64,000 bases of DNA from Alphaproteobacteria bacterium (lineage in GTDB: Bacteria; Pseudomonadota; Alphaproteobacteria; TMED109). The stretch covers positions 248,001-312,000 of the forward strand of contig JAJDWH010000010.1 in NCBI GenBank assembly GCA_022825705.1, written 5' to 3'. Both the position numbers and the translations under genes were made by a program. This document shows, piece after piece, positions 41,461 to 51,660 of this stretch. The notes below the pieces were generated by a model that ran no database searches, was not told the origin of the DNA, and worked only from the letters and a program-made list of their open reading frames with translations. Every line of letters starts with the position of its first letter. Within the stretch, counting starts at the first letter, position 1.

Positions 41461-43035
41461 TTAGCGGATGTTCACGTAGTACAACATGAACTGGTTGTCC
41501 GGGCTCTGCACCAGGTCGACCAGGTCGCTCTTTCCCCAGGCCAGGCCCTGCTGGTGGAGGGGGATGTACCCGAAGTCGTCGTGCACCAGCCGGTAGGCCT
41601 CCGCAATCATGGCGTCGCGCGCATCGGGGTCGGTCTCGACAAGAATCTTCTTGGTCAGCGCGTCGACCGCCGGATTACAGTAGTTGCCGAGGTTGAACTT
41701 GCCGGCGCCGTCGGCTTCCTGGCAGTGGATCAGGTTGTAGAGCACGTTCCAGCTGTCGAAGCTGCCCGGCGTCCAGCCCAGCAGATATAGACTCGTCTGG
41801 TAGGCGGGCCCCAGGACTTTCTTGAAAAAGAGGGCTTTTGGCTGGGCGAGCAGCTTCACCTTGATGCCGATCTTGGCGAGCATCGCACTGACGGCGATGC
41901 AGATTCGCTCATCATTGACGTAACGGTTGTTCGGACAGTCCATGCCGATCTCGAAGCCGTCCGGATATCCGGCCTCCGTCAGCAGCTGTCTCGCCAGCGC
42001 AGGATCGAAGGCGTGTCGCGCGAATTCGCCGGAACGCGCGAACAGTGTGGGCGAGATCATGAGGGCGGATGGCGTGGCAAGATTTCGCATGACCTTGCTC
42101 CCGATCGCCTCGACATCGACGGCGTGATACAGGGCGGCCCGAACCCGATCGTCCTTGAACGGATTTGTCCCCCGAACGTCGGATTCCAGCAGTTCGTCAC
42201 GGCCCTGATCGAACCCGAGAAAGATCGTTCTCAGTTCCGGGCCAACCAGCACCGATGTCCCGTCGTTTGCCTGCACCCGTCTGATGTCCTGCACGGGCAC
42301 CGGATAGGCCATGTCGATTTGCCCGGAGAGCAGCGCCGCAACGCGCGTTGCGTCCGAACTGATGGGCGTCATCACTACCTCGGTGAGGTTGTGTTGGGGT
42401 TGGTCCCACCAATCCGGATTCGGCCTCAGGACCGTCCTGACATCGGTCTCCCGCTCCACCACCATGAACGGACCCGTGCCGTTGGTGTGGAAGTTGGCGT
42501 AGTTCTCGGTGCCCGCGGTAACGCTCGCCGGTTGCACGGCGTCGTGCTCTTCCGTCCACTCCTTGTCCATGATGTACCAAGTACCCCACTCGGAGTGGAG
42601 AATTGGATTGGGTGCCGGGGTAATGAAGTCGACGGTGTGAGTGTCGACCTTGACCACCTTGACGTCCGCCGCGATTCGGGTCTTGAGATCAGAGCCCGTG
42701 GCGCGGACCCGGTTCGCCGAAAACACCACGTCGTCGGCGTCGAACGCGTTCCCGTTGTGGAATGTCACGTTCTTCCGTAGGTAGAAACGCCAGCGTGTCG
42801 GCTCCAGGACTTCCCATCGCTCGGCCAGCGCCGGCTGAATTTCGAGGTCCGGGCTGCGCCGGATGAGGCCTTCGTAGACGTTGCCCAGGAAACCCAGCGT
42901 GAACGTCTCGTTCAGTACGTAGGGATCCAGCCCCTGGGCGTCCCCTTGGAACGCCCATCGAAGCGTCTTCGCTTCGACGGCGCCGGCTGTCGCAACAGCG
43001 ATCAGGGCCGCGCACATCATCGCCGTTCGTGGCAT
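41461..43035 (-). CDS. ABC transporter substrate-binding protein, family 5 (peptide/nickel type)
   Basis: 524 residues from the ATG at 43035; 24 extra codons open upstream lack a signal-peptide look. A signal peptide (about 1-22, ending VEA) precedes LRWAFQGDAQGLDPYVLNETF, RWEVLEPTRWRFYLRKNVTFHNGNAFDADDVVFS split over the family motif, and a C-terminal GYIPLHQQGLAWGK. Family 5 proteins deliver di- or oligopeptides, glutathione or other small molecules; the ligand cannot be read from sequence. It begins the transporter locus. Confidence 0.91.
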   Translation of the reverse strand: MPRTAMMCAALIAVATAGAVEAKTLRWAFQGDAQGLDPYVLNETFTLGFLGNVYEGLIRRSPDLEIQPALAERWEVLEPTRWRFYLRKNVTFHNGNAFDADDVVFSANRVRATGSDLKTRIAADVKVVKVDTHTVDFITPAPNPILHSEWGTWYIMDKEWTEEHDAVQPASVTAGTENYANFHTNGTGPFMVVERETDVRTVLRPNPDWWDQPQHNLTEVVMTPISSDATRVAALLSGQIDMAYPVPVQDIRRVQANDGTSVLVGPELRTIFLGFDQGRDELLESDVRGTNPFKDDRVRAALYHAVDVEAIGSKVMRNLATPSALMISPTLFARSGEFARHAFDPALARQLLTEAGYPDGFEIGMDCPNNRYVNDERICIAVSAMLAKIGIKVKLLAQPKALFFKKVLGPAYQTSLYLLGWTPGSFDSWNVLYNLIHCQEADGAGKFNLGNYCNPAVDALTKKILVETDPDARDAMIAEAYRLVHDDFGYIPLHQQGLAWGKSDLVDLVQSPDNQFMLYYVNIR

Positions 43036-43448
43036 GGAGGTTCCTCCCTGTCGTCGCTGCTTATCCACTCGAAACGGAACCGGCAGGTTCTGTCCCGAGG
43101 CGTCCATGCGGACACTAGAACGTGATCCTCCACAAGAGAACCGGCACCGGCCCCGCGTGAGGTGGGGGGAGCAAGGAGTTTGCCGCCGTCGGTGGTGGCC
43201 ACTGCCGAGTACCCGAAGGCAGCTGGGGGCGTGCGGCGGACCATGCCGTCAGATGGCCGGACGGCAGTTTCAATGCACGGGCCTCCCGCCGGGTTTAGGC
43301 GCTTCCGCTCCGGGCCCCATAAACGATTGCAAACGCGGCCCGACACGCGGCGTCCGCATCCGCGGGTCGGCATCATCCCATCGAGAACGTCTGCACACCG
43401 GATCAATCAGCCGGCGCGGTTCCCCCGGCCGGACTGCGTCCGTCTAGA
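43036..43448. other. Intergenic region between the RND transporter gene and the binding-protein gene
   Basis: 413 bp. It contains the promoter of the binding-protein gene at its low-numbered side of the operon path and the end of the RND cluster. No gene, repeat or clear terminator was recognised. Confidence 0.35.
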
Positions 43449-45782
43449 TCACCGTTGGTCGATTGCGGTCTTGTCCGGCCTCACGAGCCAGGCACCCAGG
43501 GCCGGCAGCAGGACAACCGCCCCGATCATGTTGACCAAGAACATGAACGTCAGCACCGTGCCCACGTCCGCCTGGAACTTCAGTGGCGCGACGATCCACG
43601 TAGCGACCCCGACGGCCAGGGTGAGGGCGGTGAGGACGACCCCCGCTCCGGTGGTGGCCAGCGTCCGCTCATAGGCCGTGGCGAAGTCCAGGCCCTCCGC
43701 AAGCAGGGTGCGGAGCCGTCCGTAGATGTAAATGCCGTAGTCCACCCCGATTCCCGCCCCGAGCGCCACGACCGGCAGGGTGGACACCTTGAGGCCGATC
43801 TCGAGCAGCCCCATGAGGGCGTAGGCGAGCAGGGAGACCACCGCGAGCGGCGCAATGATGCACACGGTCGCCGCCGCCGACCGGAAGGAGAGCAGGCACA
43901 GCACGATGACCGCGGCGTACACGTAGGCGAGGATCGGGAACTGCGACGCTGCCACCTCTTCGTTGGTCGCCGCCATCACCCCGACGTTGCCGGAGGCGAG
44001 TCGGAACGCGGTGCGGTCGTCCGGATTCGCGGCGTCGAATGCCTTCACCGCGTCGACCACGCGCTCGATGGTCTCGGCCTTGTGGTCGGTCGTGTAGATC
44101 GACACCGGCATGACGCTGCAGTCGAGGTTGAGCAACCCGCTGCTCGTCGGCACCGGAGAGACCGACTGGACGATCATGTAGCGATTGCGGGGGAGGGTCC
44201 GCCACTTGAGGCTGCCCTCGTTCCACATCGCGTTGATGTTGCTCATGGTGCCGGCGAGCCCGCGCACCGACTGAACGCCCTCCACGTTGCGGACGTGCCA
44301 TTCGAAGGCGTCGAGGGTGCGCATCACGTCGTAGTCGATGCAGCCCTCCGCCACCGTCTCCACGATCACCGTCAGGACATCCACACCGATGTCGAAACGG
44401 TCGGTGATCACGGCCGAGTCGAGGTTGTAGACGGACTCGGCCCGCAGCTCCGGCACACCCTGATGCTCGTCGCCAATCCGGACCTCCGGCGCCACGTACG
44501 CGCCGGCGGCCAGGAGCACGAGGGCCACACCGATCACGGCGGCGGCGGGGCCCCGGTGTGCGAGACGCGCCATCCGCGACCACACCGGCTGCAGCAGGTC
44601 GTCGCGCTCGCGCGTCGCGCGGCGCTGTGCGTCGCTTGCCTCGAAGTACGAGAGCAGGACCGGCAGCAGCGCCAGGTTGGTGAGGATGATGGCCGCCACG
44701 CCGAGGCTCGCCGTCATGGCGATCTCCTTCATGACCTGGACCTCGATGAACGAGATGGTGATGAAGCCCACCGAGTCGGAGGCCAGCGCAACCGCGCCCG
44801 GCAGCAGGAGGCGGCGGACGCTCGCCCGCGCGGCCGCGAGAGCGGTGGCGCCGCCCGCTTCCTCCGCGCGCATCGCGCTCACCATCTGGACCCCGTGGCT
44901 CACGCCGATCGCGAACACGAGGAACGGCACCAGGATGGACATCGGATCGACGCCGAAACCCAGCGCCGTGACGCCGCCGAGCTGCCAGACCACCGCGACC
45001 AGGGAACAGGCGAGCGGCGGTATCGTCAGCCGGAGCGACCGGGTGTAGGCGTAGACGAACAGCGCCGTGATCAGGACCGCGATCCCGAAGAACGCGACCA
45101 CCCGGGTCGCGCCGGCCGCGATGTCCCCCACCACCTTGGCGAACCCGATGACGTGCAGGTCGACGTGCACGTCCACCTCCGCGTCCGCGGTAACCGTCTG
45201 GCGGATGCGTTCCAGCTCGCCCGCGACCTCGATGTAGTCGAGTCGCTCGCCGGTGTTGGGGTGGAACTCCTGCAGCTTGGCGGCCACGATCGCGCCGGTG
45301 AAGTCGTTGGCCACCAGGCGTCCGACGAGACCGGCCTTGATGATGTTCTCCCGTACCCGGGCGAAGCCCGCGTCGGTGGGCTCGAAGTCCACCGGCAGCA
45401 CGTTCCCGGCCGCCACGCCATCCTCCACCACCTCGATGAACCGCACGTTCGGCGTGAGGATCGAGAACACTTGGGTCCGATCGACGCCCGGCAGGAAGAA
45501 CGTTGCATCGGTCACTTGCCGGAGTGCCTCGAAGAACCCGGGCGTGAACATGTCGCCGTCGCGCGCCATCACCGCGATCAGGACGCGGTCGGCACCGCCG
45601 AACTCGTCGCGGTACTCGAGGAAGGTCTGCATGTACTCGTGCTCGACGGGTACCAGCTTGGTGAAGCCGGCATCCACGCGGAGCCCCGTCGCGGACCATC
45701 CCATCGCGATGGTGACGAGCGCGAATGCCGCCAGCACGAGCGGGCGGCGGGCGAACAGGAGCCGTTCGATGCGCTCCGTCAC
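43449..45782 (-). CDS. RND/MMPL-superfamily transporter
   Basis: 777 residues from a GTG at 45782 (VTERIERLLFARRPLVL is the family-like start); a GTG 17 codons earlier is possible. The topology is RND-like: one helix, a large periplasmic domain with DAGFTKLVPVEHEYMQTF, six helices including a cluster at ALITALFVYAYT and SILVPFLVFAIGVSHGVQM, a second periplasmic domain, and a final helix bundle (PVVALGAGIGVDYGIYIYGR). The GVSHGVQM and GVDYGIYI motifs place it with the lipid/hopanoid-type RND group. It is the last gene of the DUF1302-DUF1329-YCF48-RND cluster and may move hydrophobic compounds in the envelope. Very high third-position GC gives unusually long antisense frames. Confidence 0.87.
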   Translation of the reverse strand: MTERIERLLFARRPLVLAAFALVTIAMGWSATGLRVDAGFTKLVPVEHEYMQTFLEYRDEFGGADRVLIAVMARDGDMFTPGFFEALRQVTDATFFLPGVDRTQVFSILTPNVRFIEVVEDGVAAGNVLPVDFEPTDAGFARVRENIIKAGLVGRLVANDFTGAIVAAKLQEFHPNTGERLDYIEVAGELERIRQTVTADAEVDVHVDLHVIGFAKVVGDIAAGATRVVAFFGIAVLITALFVYAYTRSLRLTIPPLACSLVAVVWQLGGVTALGFGVDPMSILVPFLVFAIGVSHGVQMVSAMRAEEAGGATALAAARASVRRLLLPGAVALASDSVGFITISFIEVQVMKEIAMTASLGVAAIILTNLALLPVLLSYFEASDAQRRATRERDDLLQPVWSRMARLAHRGPAAAVIGVALVLLAAGAYVAPEVRIGDEHQGVPELRAESVYNLDSAVITDRFDIGVDVLTVIVETVAEGCIDYDVMRTLDAFEWHVRNVEGVQSVRGLAGTMSNINAMWNEGSLKWRTLPRNRYMIVQSVSPVPTSSGLLNLDCSVMPVSIYTTDHKAETIERVVDAVKAFDAANPDDRTAFRLASGNVGVMAATNEEVAASQFPILAYVYAAVIVLCLLSFRSAAATVCIIAPLAVVSLLAYALMGLLEIGLKVSTLPVVALGAGIGVDYGIYIYGRLRTLLAEGLDFATAYERTLATTGAGVVLTALTLAVGVATWIVAPLKFQADVGTVLTFMFLVNMIGAVVLLPALGAWLVRPDKTAIDQR

Positions 45783-45890
45783 GGGCTCGGCCTGCCGGCG
45801 GCGCCCGCCGTCCTCCCGGCGCGCGCGCGGCACGGGCGGCGGTGCCTGCGCCCATGCGGCGAGAGGACGGACACGGTCTCCATCGGGGCG

Positions 45891-46904
45891 CTAGTCGGCG
45901 CCCGGCCAGCGCCGGACGCCGAATTCCCCGACCAGCAGCACGCCGCCGTCCGAGAGCGGCAGCGCCGCCGAGATTCCGGCGCGCGATGCCAGTCGGTTGC
46001 TGGCCACGCTGCGCGCGCCGTCGTCGCTGCTCAGCACGCTACCTTCCAGCCCGGTCACGATGATCCGCCCCGACGGGAGCCGGACGGCTCCGGTCAGGGT
46101 CGCACGGGTGTGCGTGGTCACCTCCGTCCAGGTCTCGCCGCCGTCCGCGGAGCGGAACAGATGACCCCTGAGCCCCACCAGCAGCACCTGGTCCTCGTCG
46201 AGCGCCAGCCCGCCGAACCATGAGCCGGCGTAGGGCGAGGATAGTTCGCGCCAGGTCGCGCCGCCGTCGTCGGAGCGGTAGGCGACCCCGGCCTCCGCGG
46301 CGATGAACAGGCGTTGCGACGGCGGCTGCGCCGAATCTGACGCCGGTCCCGCCACGGGCACCAGCGCGTTCAGGTGGAAGTCGTTTTCGCTGATGGTCCG
46401 AGGGGTCCAGGTCTCGCCGCCATCCTTGGTCGCGAGGAAGTAGCCGTAGGCTCCGACCGCGAAGCCGGTGTGCGCATCGCGAAACCAGACGTCGAGCAGG
46501 GGGAGTTCCTCCTCCGGCGCCTGGTGCACCATCGACCAGGTCGCGCCGCCGTCGTTGGTGCGGAGGATCACTGCGTCATGCCCGACGGCCCAGCCCGTTC
46601 GCTCGTCGTGCATGTGAACCGCCGTGAGCAGGACGCGGGTGGGCACCTCGGCCTGCGTCCAGCTGGCGCCGTCGTCGGTGGATACGAGCACGTGGCCGCG
46701 CGCCCCCACCACCACCAGCCGCGAGCCGACCGCGGCGCCGTCGAGCAGCAGGGATTCGATCGCGAGCGGTGCTTGAACGGCCGCCTCGGCACCCGCGCTC
46801 CCCGGCGCGAGGAGGGCCAGCAGGCCGACGATCGCGAGGTGCCCCGCCGACCATCGCGAACGAGCGCTGGCTCGGGTGCTCCGGACCGGCAGCGGGGGAG
46901 CCAT
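45891..46904 (-). CDS. Exported YCF48/BNR-repeat beta-propeller protein
   Basis: 337 residues from the ATG at 46904; a GTG at 46988 would add 28 residues. A hydrophobic signal (HLAIVGLLALLAPGSAGA) is followed by repeated sialidase-like blades with the motif S-x-D-x-G-x-x-W: STDDGASW, RTNDGGATW, ATKDGGETW, RSDDGGATW and RSADGGETW. In cyanobacteria and plants YCF48 (HCF136) helps assemble photosystem II; proteins of this type next to RND/DUF1329/DUF1302 genes are a different, uncharacterised group. It is probably a periplasmic scaffold for the neighbouring transporter. Confidence 0.85.
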   Translation of the reverse strand: MAPPLPVRSTRASARSRWSAGHLAIVGLLALLAPGSAGAEAAVQAPLAIESLLLDGAAVGSRLVVVGARGHVLVSTDDGASWTQAEVPTRVLLTAVHMHDERTGWAVGHDAVILRTNDGGATWSMVHQAPEEELPLLDVWFRDAHTGFAVGAYGYFLATKDGGETWTPRTISENDFHLNALVPVAGPASDSAQPPSQRLFIAAEAGVAYRSDDGGATWRELSSPYAGSWFGGLALDEDQVLLVGLRGHLFRSADGGETWTEVTTHTRATLTGAVRLPSGRIIVTGLEGSVLSSDDGARSVASNRLASRAGISAALPLSDGGVLLVGEFGVRRWPGAD

Positions 46905-47038
46905 CCGCCGTGCCGCGCGCGGAATCGCCGCGACTGCGGCGAACGCACCGGGCGCTTCACGCGTCCAAGTGGACCGGAACGGGCTCACCCCGGGGTGGCA
47001 GCCGAGGCCGCCGGCGATTCAGGCGCTCAGCGCCGCAT

Positions 47039-48418
47039 TCACCGCCGGCCTGCGCGGCGCAGCGCCGCCGGTGTGAAGTCGCGTGACGTCAGGCCCGGGT
47101 CCCACGTGCACATCGGAAACTCGTTGTCGAGGCCGAAGGCAAGGTAGCGGCCGGCCTGGAGGTCCGTGTGCACCTCGAGCGTCGGCCACACCAGCGGCTT
47201 CTCGTAGTAGTTGACGACGTGGGCTTCCGACACCCGCCAGAGCTGGTCGCGGTTGTCGTAGATGTCCCCGACCAGAACCTGCCAGGAATCCTCGTCGACG
47301 TACAGGGTGCGCCGCTTGTAGATGTGGGTCGCGCCCTCCTTGAGCGTGGCTTCCACCACCCAGACCCGGTGCAGTTCGTAGCGCAGCAGTTCCGGGTTGA
47401 CGTGGAGGGGCTGGAGGATGTCGGTGAAGGCGAGGTCGCCGCTGTGCAGCCGGTACGAGTTGTACGGGACATACAGCTCGCGCTTGCCGACGAGCTCCCA
47501 GTCGTAGCGATCCACGGCCCCGTTGAACATGTCGAGCTGGTCGGCAGTCCGGAGCCCGTCGGCCGACGTGCCCGGGTTGTCGTAGGCGATGTTCGGCGCC
47601 CGCCGCACCCGGCGCTGGCCGGGGTTGTAGGTCCAGGCGTTCCGCGGCTCGCGGAACTGGTTCATGGTCTCGTGCACCAGGACGATATCGCCCGCGAGCC
47701 GGGCCGGCGCGAGGGTCTCCTGCTTGAACAGGATCATCGTGTTGCCGAGCTCGTCCAGCGTCATGTTTGGGAGCGAGTAGCGCAGCTCGATCTCGAGGCT
47801 CTGCTTTACCAGCGTGAAGTCGCCGCCGCGGGTGACCGCGGCCTGGCCGAGGGTGCACGCCACCGACTCGCCTCGGTAGCGCAGCAGGTGGTTCCAGATC
47901 ACCTCTAGGCCGTTGGCGGGAATCGGGAACGGGATGCCGATCACCGCGTCGCCGACGCCGTTGCCATCGTCCACGAGCCTGGCGTTGGCGGCGATATCCC
48001 GGGTGGCGTCGTAGATCCGCTGGGGAACCGAGGCGCTGCGCCGGGTCGGGTAGACCTGCATGTTGAAACTCGGATACGTCTCCAGCAGGTGCTGGTGTCC
48101 GATCGAGAGCAGGTCGCGGTGCTCATCTAGGTTGCCGGCGTCGATGACGAACAGCGGCGCATCGGCGGCGTATGGATCGGGGTGATGCTCGCCGACGCTG
48201 TAGCCGGCCGGCGGCTCCGTGATGCCGCCGGTCCACTCCGGGATGGTGCCCGCGGCGTTGCCCGCCCGTTCGCCGCCCAGCGGGGTGAGGTCGGCGCCGA
48301 GCCGCGCAATTTCCTCCGCCGGGATCTCGGCGGCGGCGGGGGCGGCGAGGACACAGCCGAGGACGAGGGCGGCGCCCAGACGAAGCGTGGTCGTTCTCGT
48401 GTCATTCATGGCGTTCAT
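47039..48418 (-). CDS. DUF1329 outer-membrane lipoprotein-sorting-like protein
   Basis: 459 residues. A signal peptide (about 1-30, ending AAA-E) is followed by the DUF1329 domain: EIARLGADLTPLGGERAGN, IPEWTGGI near 60-67, GLEVIWNHLLRYRG, AYDNPGTSADGLRTADQLDMFNG in the middle, and a C-terminal EFPMCTWDPGLTSRDF. The fold is believed to be LolA/LolB-like and so suited to carrying a hydrophobic ligand across the periplasm. It lies 12 bp after the DUF1302 gene in the same operon. A second ATG three codons in is an alternative start. Confidence 0.88.
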   Translation of the reverse strand: MNAMNDTRTTTLRLGAALVLGCVLAAPAAAEIPAEEIARLGADLTPLGGERAGNAAGTIPEWTGGITEPPAGYSVGEHHPDPYAADAPLFVIDAGNLDEHRDLLSIGHQHLLETYPSFNMQVYPTRRSASVPQRIYDATRDIAANARLVDDGNGVGDAVIGIPFPIPANGLEVIWNHLLRYRGESVACTLGQAAVTRGGDFTLVKQSLEIELRYSLPNMTLDELGNTMILFKQETLAPARLAGDIVLVHETMNQFREPRNAWTYNPGQRRVRRAPNIAYDNPGTSADGLRTADQLDMFNGAVDRYDWELVGKRELYVPYNSYRLHSGDLAFTDILQPLHVNPELLRYELHRVWVVEATLKEGATHIYKRRTLYVDEDSWQVLVGDIYDNRDQLWRVSEAHVVNYYEKPLVWPTLEVHTDLQAGRYLAFGLDNEFPMCTWDPGLTSRDFTPAALRRAGRR

Positions 48419-48430
48419 GGCCTCGGATCC

Positions 48431-50662
48431 TCAGAACGAGTACTTGACGGAGGCGGAGATGAAATCGCGGTCGAACAGCTCGTTGCCGTCGCCCGCGTAC
48501 CGCGTGAAGCCGACGTCGGCCTGCCAGCGGCTGAGATAGTCGGCGCGTATCCCGACCGTCAGCGCGGTCCGCCCCTCCACGAAGGGGCCGCTGGGAGCGG
48601 GGCTGTTGCCGCTGACATCGTGCAGGAACTGTGCGTAGGGGAAGAGGTTGATGGATCCGATCGCGTTGTTGTAGTCAAGGCGCGCCGCGATCCGGTACCC
48701 CCATGAGGTGGCGTCCGCGTCGGCTTCATGGGGCGTGTTGTCGGGCGCCGTCGGGGGTGGGGCCGGCAGGATACCGCCCGCCGGACTCTCGAGGGGGGTC
48801 GTGCGCCTGTCCGGCATGTCATGGACGTGCATCAGCGCGGCTTCCGCGACGAACGCAAGGCTGTCCGCCCCCATGCTGGGCCCGAAGACCTTGGTCGCGG
48901 TGGCTTGGACTTGGCTCACGTCGCGCCGGATGTAGCCCTCCACCCGCGTCGGCTCGTAGGCCGCGAGATAGCCGGGGAGCTGCTCCGGCGCGCGGGAAGC
49001 CAATCCCAGCGCCGTGATGATCGGCCGGAGACCGTCCTCGAGGACCTTCCGCTCGGCCCGTTGCAGCGGCGCGTCGGCACGCAGGGAGTACTCCCCCTGC
49101 AGTGCCCAGCCTGAAGCACCGAGCACCGTGTTGAAGCTCACGCCGACGAGCCGGATGTCCTCGGGATACTCGAGGAAGTACTCTCCTCCCTTCCCGTACC
49201 GGTCGATCGCTAGCGCAGCGGCGATCCCACCGACTTGCGCTCCGACTCGCGCCTCGGTTTCAGCTTCGATGATTCCTCGGACGTCGTTGACTCCTGTTTG
49301 GATGGTGCGGGCCGCTTCCTCTGGCGGGAGCAATCCGGCCTGAACCGCCTGCTGGACATTCTGTGTGATCTCTGCGGCGAGGCGGGCAATCTCGGCACCG
49401 GCGGCCGCGCTCGCGGCAGCGCCCACGGTAGACGCGGTTGTGGAAGTCGGCCTGCCGATCGCGTCGGCCGCGAAGAGCCCCGCCTGCACGCTGCCTAGAT
49501 CCGAGGTCTGCGCGCCGACCGTGGGCAGCCTGCTGTGGTAGTTGATGACGTAGAAGCCGAACTCGGTATCGTTCAGTTCCTCAGCGAGGTACCGCACCGC
49601 CATGCCCCACTGGCCGGAGTCGTTGGGCACCCGGTCCGCGCCGCGCAGTACGCTCGCGAAGTCGTCATCGAATGCCGCCTGCGGACGTTGCGGCGCGGGG
49701 ATCGGATCCCCGGTCAGCGGGTGCGGCACCGTGTAGGCGGCCAGGTCCGCATTGATCGCCGCCGTCAGCGGGCCAAATCCGAACCCCTGGTCCCAGAGCT
49801 GCCGCTGGTCGGGCAGGAGCCCTTCATAGATGTTGGTAACGACCGCCTTTCTCGCACCTGGTCCCGCGTAGTCGGTGCTCGAGAAGTAGCTCCCGACCGG
49901 ATCGATCCGGGTCTCGTCCCAGTCAAACTGGTAGAAGCCTTCGACCGACAGAGTGTCGGTTGGCGCGACCGCCACCGAGGCCAGCCCTGCGGGCAGCAGC
50001 GCTTCCCGGAGTTCCGAACCTGGCAGCCTGAGCTTGCTCACGTCGAACGGGTTGACGGCGTTGATGCCGTTCGGGATGAAGGTGCTCTCCCCCCAGTTCA
50101 GCACGTGCCTGCCCAGCCGGACGTCGATGGGCATGTCGCCGACGTCGAATGCGGCGGTGACGTACGCATCGAGGATCTCGACGTCGCTGCCCACGCGCTC
50201 TTTCGCCTCGTCACTCAGCGGGGTGCGCTCGCGATCTCCGTTCTGATTCTCGAAGTCGAGGAAACCCGTGGCCCTGACGAACGCGCCGAACTCGCCGGTC
50301 CGTAGGTCAAGATCCGAGGTGAACTTGGAGGCGTTGCTGACGATGCCCCGGTCGTAATTGAGATTGCCGTCGTTCCCGTTGGTATCGCTGGCAAGGGTGT
50401 CATCACGCTCCTCGACACGATAGGTCATGCCGTAGGAGATGATGGTATCCAAACTCCCTTGGTATCCATTTTCACCGAACTCGACCGCCTGGGCTGGAGA
50501 TACCTGCAGAAGCACAACGAGCCCGGTAGCGGCTGTCGCCATCGCGACCGAGCCGATCACGTGCCGTGCACGGCGTCTCAACCCGTGTGTCACACATGCT
50601 GGCTTCGCCAAGCACTCCGGAAGGTGCCGCGTGGCGGTGTTGGGTTCGTTGGTGTTCCTCAT
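48431..50662 (-). CDS. DUF1302 outer-membrane barrel protein with a helical insertion
   Basis: 743 residues from the ATG at 50662. A long signal region ends near residue 59 (VSPAQA). DUF1302 features follow: YGMTYRVEERDD near 77-88, NDGNLNYDRGIVSNASKFTSDLDLR split around 97-121, GRHVLNWGESTFIPNGINAVNPFDVSKLR split around 184-212, and a final FISASVKYSF ending in Phe. Family members are predicted outer-membrane barrels, usually 550-650 residues. The surplus comes from an Ala-rich, probably helical segment at about 385-490 (AAASAAAGAEIARLAAEI, AQVGGIAAALAIDRYG). It is the first gene of the cluster, with an AT-rich regulatory region upstream. Confidence 0.88.
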   Translation of the reverse strand: MRNTNEPNTATRHLPECLAKPACVTHGLRRRARHVIGSVAMATAATGLVVLLQVSPAQAVEFGENGYQGSLDTIISYGMTYRVEERDDTLASDTNGNDGNLNYDRGIVSNASKFTSDLDLRTGEFGAFVRATGFLDFENQNGDRERTPLSDEAKERVGSDVEILDAYVTAAFDVGDMPIDVRLGRHVLNWGESTFIPNGINAVNPFDVSKLRLPGSELREALLPAGLASVAVAPTDTLSVEGFYQFDWDETRIDPVGSYFSSTDYAGPGARKAVVTNIYEGLLPDQRQLWDQGFGFGPLTAAINADLAAYTVPHPLTGDPIPAPQRPQAAFDDDFASVLRGADRVPNDSGQWGMAVRYLAEELNDTEFGFYVINYHSRLPTVGAQTSDLGSVQAGLFAADAIGRPTSTTASTVGAAASAAAGAEIARLAAEITQNVQQAVQAGLLPPEEAARTIQTGVNDVRGIIEAETEARVGAQVGGIAAALAIDRYGKGGEYFLEYPEDIRLVGVSFNTVLGASGWALQGEYSLRADAPLQRAERKVLEDGLRPIITALGLASRAPEQLPGYLAAYEPTRVEGYIRRDVSQVQATATKVFGPSMGADSLAFVAEAALMHVHDMPDRRTTPLESPAGGILPAPPPTAPDNTPHEADADATSWGYRIAARLDYNNAIGSINLFPYAQFLHDVSGNSPAPSGPFVEGRTALTVGIRADYLSRWQADVGFTRYAGDGNELFDRDFISASVKYSF

Positions 50663-51107
50663 GGACCATCCCCGTCGCAGTTTGTGTTGCAGCGTTGAGT
50701 CCGGTCCCTCAACGAAGAGAAGACCGCGATCCCCCGGTTTGGGAGATCCAATGCTTCGCCGTGATCCGGCGTACGAATCAAAGCCCTGTGCCCTTCGTGA
50801 AACCGACCACCCATTAGCACGCAAATCCGCACCTTGATTGCGCCTTGTATGACACCGCAATCATAGCCGAGAGGCATAAAAACATAACCGAGACGTATAC
50901 AAAGTATCGTATCCGTAAGCTGTCTCAAGCTATGACTATTGTGTCCAGCATGTGACGCGCGCCTAGCCGGTACTATAGTCACAATTCGCAACCATCGCCC
51001 CGAGCCGATGCGCCGCTGGGGTGATCGTCGTTCAAATCCGCACAAGTCGGGACCTATCCCCGGGGATGGACACCTGAGCGGAGACGACCCTGAGAAGCAC
51101 GATCTCG
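50663..51107. promoter_or_regulatory. Regulatory region of the DUF1302-DUF1329-YCF48-RND operon
   Basis: About 445 bp, of which 50840-50990 is markedly AT-rich compared with the rest of the window. It contains the phased direct repeats at 50862-50899, TATACAAAGTAT-like promoter words near 50896-50907, and two related words GACTATTGTG (about 50934-50943) and ATAGTCACAAT (about 50976-50986). It separates the operon from the divergent regulator remnant. Confidence 0.5.
50862..50899. repeat. Two direct repeats phased 21 bp apart, candidate operator
   Basis: CATAGCCGAGAGGCATA at 50862-50878 and CATAACCGAGACGTATA at 50883-50899 agree at 14 of 17 positions and start exactly 21 bp apart, two helical turns. 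This spacing is typical for proteins that bind tandem sites on one face of DNA, such as OmpR/PhoB-type regulators. The location about 200 bp upstream of the DUF1302 start and next to a wrecked winged-helix regulator gene fits an operator, but binding is not shown. Confidence 0.5.
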
Positions 51108-51507
51108 AAGCGTCCAGTGAGCGCGTCGCTGGACTTGGCGCAGCCATCTTGCGTATCAGCGCGAGCCTTGACGCCCACACCGTCCCGCCGGAAGTCGTTG
51201 ACAGCGCCCCGCGCGCTTGTCGGCGTCCGTTACGGCGTGATCGTGAGTGTCGACTAAGCTGGGAAGGTTCAGGACTTTGCTGTTATGTCCTTCGCTCAAC
51301 GCCGGAAGGGTGTCGACTTTCGACTGGCTGCTCCGCCAGGTCTGCGGCTGGCTGCATACCGGCGATGTCGGACGGTTGCGCACCGTCATGAAGAAGCTGC
51401 GCCGCAAGCTGGTTGACGACGCGGCCCGGCCGAGCTGGATCTTCAGCGGGCGGGGCGTTGGCTACCGCATGGCTAGACCTGGCGTCTCACCACCTCCGCT
51501 TCGATGA
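51090..51507 (+). pseudogene. Remnant of a GAF-domain / winged-helix regulator
   Basis: Two pieces of one regulator type remain. The first, about 51100-51254, reads LEASSERVAGLGAAILRIS then ASLDAHTVPPEVVDSA, the start of a GAF domain; one extra C in the run at 51207-51210 shifts the frame into RALVGVRYGVIVSVD, and a TAA at 51255-51257 interrupts before AGKVQDF. The second, about 51310-51507, reads FDWLLRQVCGWLHTGDVGRLR and MKKLRRKLVDDAARPSWIF then GVGYRM, the end of an OmpR-type winged helix. The middle of the gene is deleted. It lies divergently from the DUF1302 operon, so it probably once controlled it. The family assignment is by pattern. Confidence 0.72.
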
Positions 51508-51660
51508 CGTGGATTCCGGCGTATAGCCACACGTCCGCTGCATTCCGCGACGGCCATGACTGTTCCGCGCGCAATGCCCGGTACGGGCCGTGCCGGTCGG
51601 CCCTCGGTCGCACGACCACGACGCTGCCGGCGGGAAAGCTTCTGCCGATTGGGTCAGGCG

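Follow-up and report, generated by a model that had tools for sequence, protein, structure and literature searches.

An AmeABCD-type envelope transporter cassette with evidence of lateral spread between bacterial phyla and two alternative chromosomal sites within one genus

The DNA analyzed here, referred to below as the window, is a 64,000-nucleotide stretch of an alphaproteobacterial contig. On its minus strand, transcribed from 50662 to 43449, lies a cassette of four genes encoding DUF1302, DUF1329, YCF48/BNR, and RND proteins in that order. The first gene (48431-50662) encodes an AmeA-like DUF1302 outer-membrane beta barrel of 743 amino acids (PF06980, E 5e-163). It is followed on the same strand by genes for an AmeB-like DUF1329 protein, periplasmic and LolA-like, with 459 amino acids (47039-48418; PF07044, E 5e-149), an AmeC-like YCF48/BNR propeller protein of 365 amino acids (45891-46988; PF14870, E 2e-22), and an AmeD-like, MMPL/HAE3-like RND transporter of the inner membrane (43449-45833; PF03176, E 4e-22). 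An initial annotation of this DNA had reported four genes in one direction, and the Pfam matches placed all of them at these positions on a single strand. The gaps along the cassette are 12, 50, and 57 bases, and it is therefore plausible that the four genes form one operon. The DUF1302 start at 50662 is common to relatives, and the true start of the RND gene is probably the GTG at 45782, which would give a protein of 777 amino acids; the sole support for this start is a relative (L029) whose RND gene begins with an ATG at the matching codon. Upstream of the cassette are rpoH and a pseudouridine synthase gene, and downstream is a Dpp-type ABC operon. The cassette lies outside any catabolic island in this genome, which encodes one full-length close copy each of the DUF1329 and RND proteins along with more distant MMPL proteins.

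The four family assignments made initially were borne out by Pfam, and the predicted folds of the DUF1329 and DUF1302 proteins agree with them. In the AlphaFold model of the DUF1329 protein (pLDDT 86), the LolA fold comprises residues 166-458, which align with the LolA-family structures 4z48, 9tp6, and 3bk5 at Z-scores of 20-22. The alignments with 9tp6 (LolA3 from Porphyromonas, Z 22.1) and 4z48 (itself a DUF1329 protein, Z 20.0) extend over about 235 residues. On the basis of this model, which displays the incomplete barrel of the LolA superfamily, the protein is assigned to that superfamily. The DUF1302 model (pLDDT 80) has a barrel resembling OprD/Occ channels, with which about 300 residues align at Z 20-21, and the protein is accordingly predicted to be a porin-like outer-membrane beta barrel. 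Its residues 389-490 form an alanine-rich helical insert in the barrel that is modeled with good confidence, and the corresponding segment is between 58 and 130 residues long in relatives. In the near sister L010, the DUF1302 protein (L010:7880-9985) is 73% identical to that of the window and the DUF1329 protein 97% identical. DUF1302 is thus a mosaic, and the divergence in the middle of the barrel suggests that a segment was replaced there.

The propeller protein probably carries an N-terminal export signal, contains five Asp-boxes (at residues 103, 144, 187, 239, and 280), and matches solved Ycf48 structures in the PDB with an E-value of 1e-16. It was rejected as the photosystem II assembly factor Ycf48 itself, given a score of 76 bits for model NF010237 against a cut-off of 326; the propeller family is the same, but the factor is different. 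The RND protein has 11 hydrophobic peaks in the layout typical of RND proteins. Its top NCBIfam model is HAE3 TIGR00921 (E 3e-43), with a score of 148 bits that is below the cut-off of 351.9. Among solved structures, the nearest was MmpL3 (E 1e-6), and a weak match was found to the RND transporter 5khn. Identification of the protein as the hopanoid transporter HpnN was rejected (TIGR03480, 65 bits versus a cut-off of 752). Also rejected was an assignment of the cassette as an HAE1 tripartite efflux pump: the RND gene has DUF1302, DUF1329, and YCF48 genes as neighbors, and domains of a membrane-fusion protein and a TolC-like channel are absent from the cassette.

By gene content and gene order, both of which are established, the window's set corresponds to AmeABCD, and we count it as a member of this known system of tetrapartite envelope transporters. 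The initial annotation had proposed a single envelope-spanning transport set, and this proposal is supported by the match. AmeABCD was described in 2018 in Castellaniella defragrans 65Phen, where DUF1302, DUF1329, COG4447/YCF48-like, and HAE3 RND genes occur in the order seen in the window and encode proteins of similar lengths to the window's (605, 451, 316, and 787 amino acids); its authors reported that the AmeD lineage retains both the makeup of the cassette and its gene order (PMC6394551). Deletion of ameABCD weakened growth on non-functionalized monoterpenes, lowered monoterpene tolerance, and increased the accumulation of Nile Red (PMC6394551). The genomic setting is different, with the C. 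defragrans genes lying inside a monoterpene catabolic island (PMC6394551) and the window's between rpoH and the Dpp-type operon. In Pseudomonas putida, the DUF1302 and DUF1329 proteins (PP_0765/PP_0766) as well as a periplasmic protein and an RND protein (PP_2018/PP_2019) are all required for growth on Tween 20, and complexes of them have been predicted with AlphaFold (PMC10866462). These proteins match the window's in type, but their genes are split over two loci rather than gathered in a single cassette (PMC10866462). A further relative is the 'nanopod' cluster of the benzene degrader ORM2a, which was found by proteomics to be highly expressed and was interpreted as a trans-envelope complex (PMC13101534). 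Like the window, it encodes DUF1329, YCF48-related, MMPL, and porin-like proteins; unlike the window, it also encodes universal-stress and hypothetical proteins and belongs to an anaerobic degrader (PMC13101534). The recurrence of such clusters in other bacteria, as originally noted, is supported.

The refuting test proposed in the initial annotation was a co-occurrence analysis, and it was carried out on 80 related loci found via DUF1329. All four genes were present in order at 70 of these loci, 8 were cut by contig ends, and only 2 (L032 and L048) had DUF1302 and DUF1329 without the other genes. In both of the latter genomes the RND gene is found elsewhere (71% and 61% identity), an arrangement resembling the two-locus split of P. 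putida. The four genes are co-conserved, which confirms the statement of the AmeABCD authors on an independent set of loci.

What is new here is not the system, which is known, but the natural history of the cassette: its presence across phyla and its occupation of two sites within one genus. Each of the seven genomes in the window's genus has the DUF1329 and RND genes, and of the family's 21 remaining genomes none has the RND gene. These other genomes are small (0.8-1.7 Mb), so the absence may reflect loss. Site 1, between rpoH and dppA, holds the cassette in the window's genome (G000) and in G002, G004, and G005, and is closed in G001 and G003, where 362 and 271 bases separate the two flanking genes. 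Site 2, between genes named by eye from sequence similarity as thiolase and fumarate hydratase and located beside the ATP-synthase genes, holds the cassette in G001, G003, and G006; it is closed in G000, G002, G004, and G005, with spacings of 1420, 259, 160, and 1154 bases, respectively. When the window was compared by blastn with the closed site 1 of two species of the same genus (L139 and L140), the alignment stopped at 43011 and restarted at 51660 in both. The block missing from the closed site is thus 43012-51659, comprising the cassette and its 5' region. From these comparisons, we take it as established that the cassette has two alternative chromosomal sites within the genus and that the unused site is closed; that it has moved between them is the likely reading. 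A mobile element was rejected as a candidate vehicle for such a move: the window contains no tRNA gene, and no transposase or flanking repeat was noticed at the boundaries.

The two sites could instead go back to an ancient duplication, after which different lineages lost alternate copies, with no movement involved. We consider this history improbable. None of the seven genomes has both sites filled, an observation that either history could yield, but no remnants of the cassette were found in the closed sites. Moreover, in the RND tree the window's gene, at site 1, groups with those of two site-2 species (support 96) and apart from those of the other site-1 species, a pattern not expected from two old paralogues. 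With a change of site as the preferred reading, this grouping suggests that exchange of the cassette took place in addition to relocation. The two alternative sites provide a natural comparison for studying the regulation and movement of the cassette.

The missing block also includes what is left of a divergent regulator gene (50939-51504, plus strand), recognized by tblastn. In three sister genomes, the region upstream of the cassette holds a divergent gene whose product is a hybrid regulator (about 837 amino acids) with GAF, PAS, histidine-kinase (HisKA and HATPase), receiver (REC), and DNA-binding (Trans_reg_C) domains; the frame is intact in G004 and G005 and has a single in-frame TAG in G002. 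When an 837-amino-acid relative (L011:4967-7480, minus strand) was used as the query, the window was found to retain only residues 1-124 and 762-837, such that about 640 codons are deleted. A similar regulator (about 61% identity) adjoins the cassette in two Defluviicoccus bins. The gene was nevertheless rejected as a fifth member of the cassette because these genomes each encode several relatives of it (about 60% identity) and because the cassette at site 2 lacks it.

The distribution of the cassette across hosts is wider still. The nearest DUF1329 relatives (80-97% identity) are, according to their record labels, from Alphaproteobacteria of several orders, Gammaproteobacteria, Binatia, and Vicinamibacteria, and they form one supported clade in the tree. 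Eight representatives of this mixed clade (28 pairs) and nine genomes outside it were compared with respect to RpoB, which is normally the slower-evolving protein. Within the clade, mean identity was 81.2% for DUF1329 and 80.5% for RND versus 65.6% for RpoB, with DUF1329 identity exceeding RpoB identity in 27 of the 28 pairs. Between the clade and the nine outsiders, the corresponding means were 64.1%, 59.4%, and 61.5%. Because the cassette proteins of the clade are more alike than a protein that normally changes more slowly, the simplest reading is that the cassettes share a recent ancestry that their hosts do not. An RpoB tree recovered the Alphaproteobacteria and the Gammaproteobacteria each as a clade. 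For concatenated DUF1329 and RND sequences, a single clade of the three Gammaproteobacteria was rejected (p 5e-8); a single clade of all Alphaproteobacteria was not firmly rejected (p 0.08). Mixing of this kind might also be an artifact of misbinned metagenome contigs, and some members do lie on short ones (L017, 7.7 kb; L019, 3.5 kb; L014, 14.5 kb). However, the contigs with the Defluviicoccus and Albidovulum members measure 43-95 kb, and the records with a gammaproteobacterial member (L025, 5.7 Mb) and one from Binatota (L027, 4.1 Mb) are labeled as chromosomes, making misbinning less of a concern; this pair has 85% identity in DUF1329 and 63% in RpoB. Misbinning is therefore a very improbable explanation for the clade, and we conclude from the phylogeny, the RpoB comparison, and the closed sites that the window's cassette lineage has spread laterally between bacterial classes and phyla. 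In this respect, as in the variation of its site within a genus, the lineage differs from AmeABCD as described. No close relative of the cassette was found on a plasmid, with all plasmid matches below 60% identity.

Base composition forms no part of this conclusion. The initial annotation had ascribed an extreme third-position GC content (GC3) to the whole set, which held for RND (0.92) and DUF1329 (0.91), ranking in the top 1% and 3% of 227 sampled genes of the genome, and did not for YCF48 (0.87, top 12%) and DUF1302 (0.80-0.82, top 28%). It had also read the composition as a hint of foreign origin. This idea was rejected because GC3 is just as high in the genome's own atpA, atpG, and atpD genes (0.92-0.93) and because cassette GC3 in relatives follows the composition of the host, being 0.53-0.68 where the flanks have 52% GC and 0.91-0.95 where they have 70%. 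In the window's genome, the genes closest to the cassette in GC3 are these atp genes and fumarate hydratase (0.90), and rpoB has a value of 0.82. The cassette represents a worked case in which a hint of foreign origin from base composition is invalid as evidence and lateral transfer is nonetheless real. The GC3 of the cassette is compatible with strong expression. Elsewhere in the same genome, a cluster that includes ATP synthase genes (contig C34, 60001-100000; L122 and L123) has a GC3 of 0.90-0.93, a pattern suggestive of strong expression. The 922-codon antisense open frame that had been taken as a sign of special GC3 is present (43455-46223, plus strand), but it is a by-product of composition and was rejected as a gene. 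Its GC content by codon position mirrors that of the sense frame, and the antisense strand is open because TTA, CTA, and TCA codons are all absent from the RND gene; it stayed open in 300 of 300 codon shuffles.

At least part of the transfer appears to have occurred between sponge symbionts. At least three members of the mixed clade have been published as such, with L016, L023, and L024 being bins from the sponge Aplysina aerophoba (PMC5649159). The RHO, COS, and CAR bins presumably come from the Great Barrier Reef sponges of another study (PMC8163846), with names that fit and codes that are absent from the text of that paper. The code RHO stands for Rhopaloeides odorabile in a further paper, which also reports Nitrospira sp. 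SB0677 as the best match of sponge rRNA reads (PMC12203066). Robbins et al. reported in 2021 that many lateral transfers have taken place among unrelated symbionts of a sponge, the same kind of passage proposed for the window's cassette (PMC8163846). The gene classes named in the available part of that paper are glycosyl hydrolases, esterases, attachment proteins, CRISPR, restriction, and eukaryote-like repeats, and a transporter like the one described here is not among them (PMC8163846).

Overall, we think it quite likely that the window encodes an AmeABCD-type transporter for a hydrophobic molecule that was transferred laterally between classes and phyla, in part among sponge symbionts, and that changed its site within the genus. 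In such a system, the RND protein would use the proton gradient to move the molecule into or out of the inner membrane or the periplasm, the DUF1329 protein would ferry it across the periplasm in the manner of LolA, and the DUF1302 barrel would pass it through the outer membrane, with the propeller bridging or assembling the putative complex. By analogy, a fatty-acyl lipid or a terpenoid is the most likely cargo, which would be moved across the envelope in a proton-driven fashion, with both import and export being possible. The initial annotation's caution that the cargo is not established still holds; the set is widespread, and the hints in the literature so far differ (monoterpenes, Tween 20, benzene). 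Since C. defragrans uses its system for monoterpene export and P. putida needs homologues to grow on Tween 20, cargo and direction of transport may both vary within the family. A lipid cargo is favored by this P. putida requirement (PMC10866462) and by the genes beside the cassette in some distant relatives: acyl-CoA ligase at 10 loci, enoyl-CoA hydratase at 8, Lipase_bact_N lipase at 5, and another alpha/beta hydrolase at 5, all being raw counts from sequence clusters, with a Pfam check of one or two members per cluster. None of the papers searched mentions DUF1302 together with steroids.

Two other functions were weighed against this one. The cassette could be a detoxifying exporter, as in Castellaniella, that expels toxic hydrophobic compounds, sponge terpenoids for example, and that spread because bacteria sharing a host are exposed to the same toxins. 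The lowered monoterpene tolerance and raised Nile Red accumulation of the ameABCD deletion strain (PMC6394551) and the Aplysina aerophoba symbionts in the clade (PMC5649159) speak for this scenario. On the other hand, sponge origin is established for only part of the clade, and both the neighboring ligase, hydratase, and lipase genes and the Tween 20 phenotype (PMC10866462) fit lipid acquisition better, leaving detoxification a possible though somewhat unlikely role. Export of a self-made lipid to the outer membrane, as HpnN does with hopanoids and MmpL3 with trehalose monomycolate, is more doubtful. These exporters are lipid-moving relatives of the window's RND protein, with MmpL3 and, weakly, 5khn being its nearest solved structures, and the DUF1329 fold is that of lipid and lipoprotein carriers. 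However, HpnN and MmpL3 function without DUF1302, DUF1329, or YCF48 partners, the models for both match the window's protein far below their cut-offs, and no lipid-synthesis gene adjoins the cassette in the window. Returning to the lipid or terpenoid transporter favored above, a lineage of it that reached several phyla in the same type of habitat points to a cargo commonly present in that habitat, which reduces the candidates to the lipids, sterols, and terpenoids of sponges. A more specific proposal, to which we would give even weight for and against, is that the cassette is a portable transporter of the sponge microbiome, one lineage of which was passed among Alphaproteobacteria, Gammaproteobacteria, and Binatota in sponges, keeping its gene order and relocating without a recognizable mobile element, and that it gives its hosts access to, or protection from, a hydrophobic compound made by the sponge.

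Two further arrangements were observed among the related loci. In L031, L039, L049, L050, and L051, from Desulfuromonadales and Gammaproteobacteria, a gene for a large Lipase_bact_N protein lies directly upstream of the cassette, with the domain checked in L051. In L048, L064, L067, L072, L073, L081, and L086, a gene located about 200 bases upstream of DUF1302 encodes a serine/threonine kinase that also has a cyclic-nucleotide-binding domain, as checked in L081.
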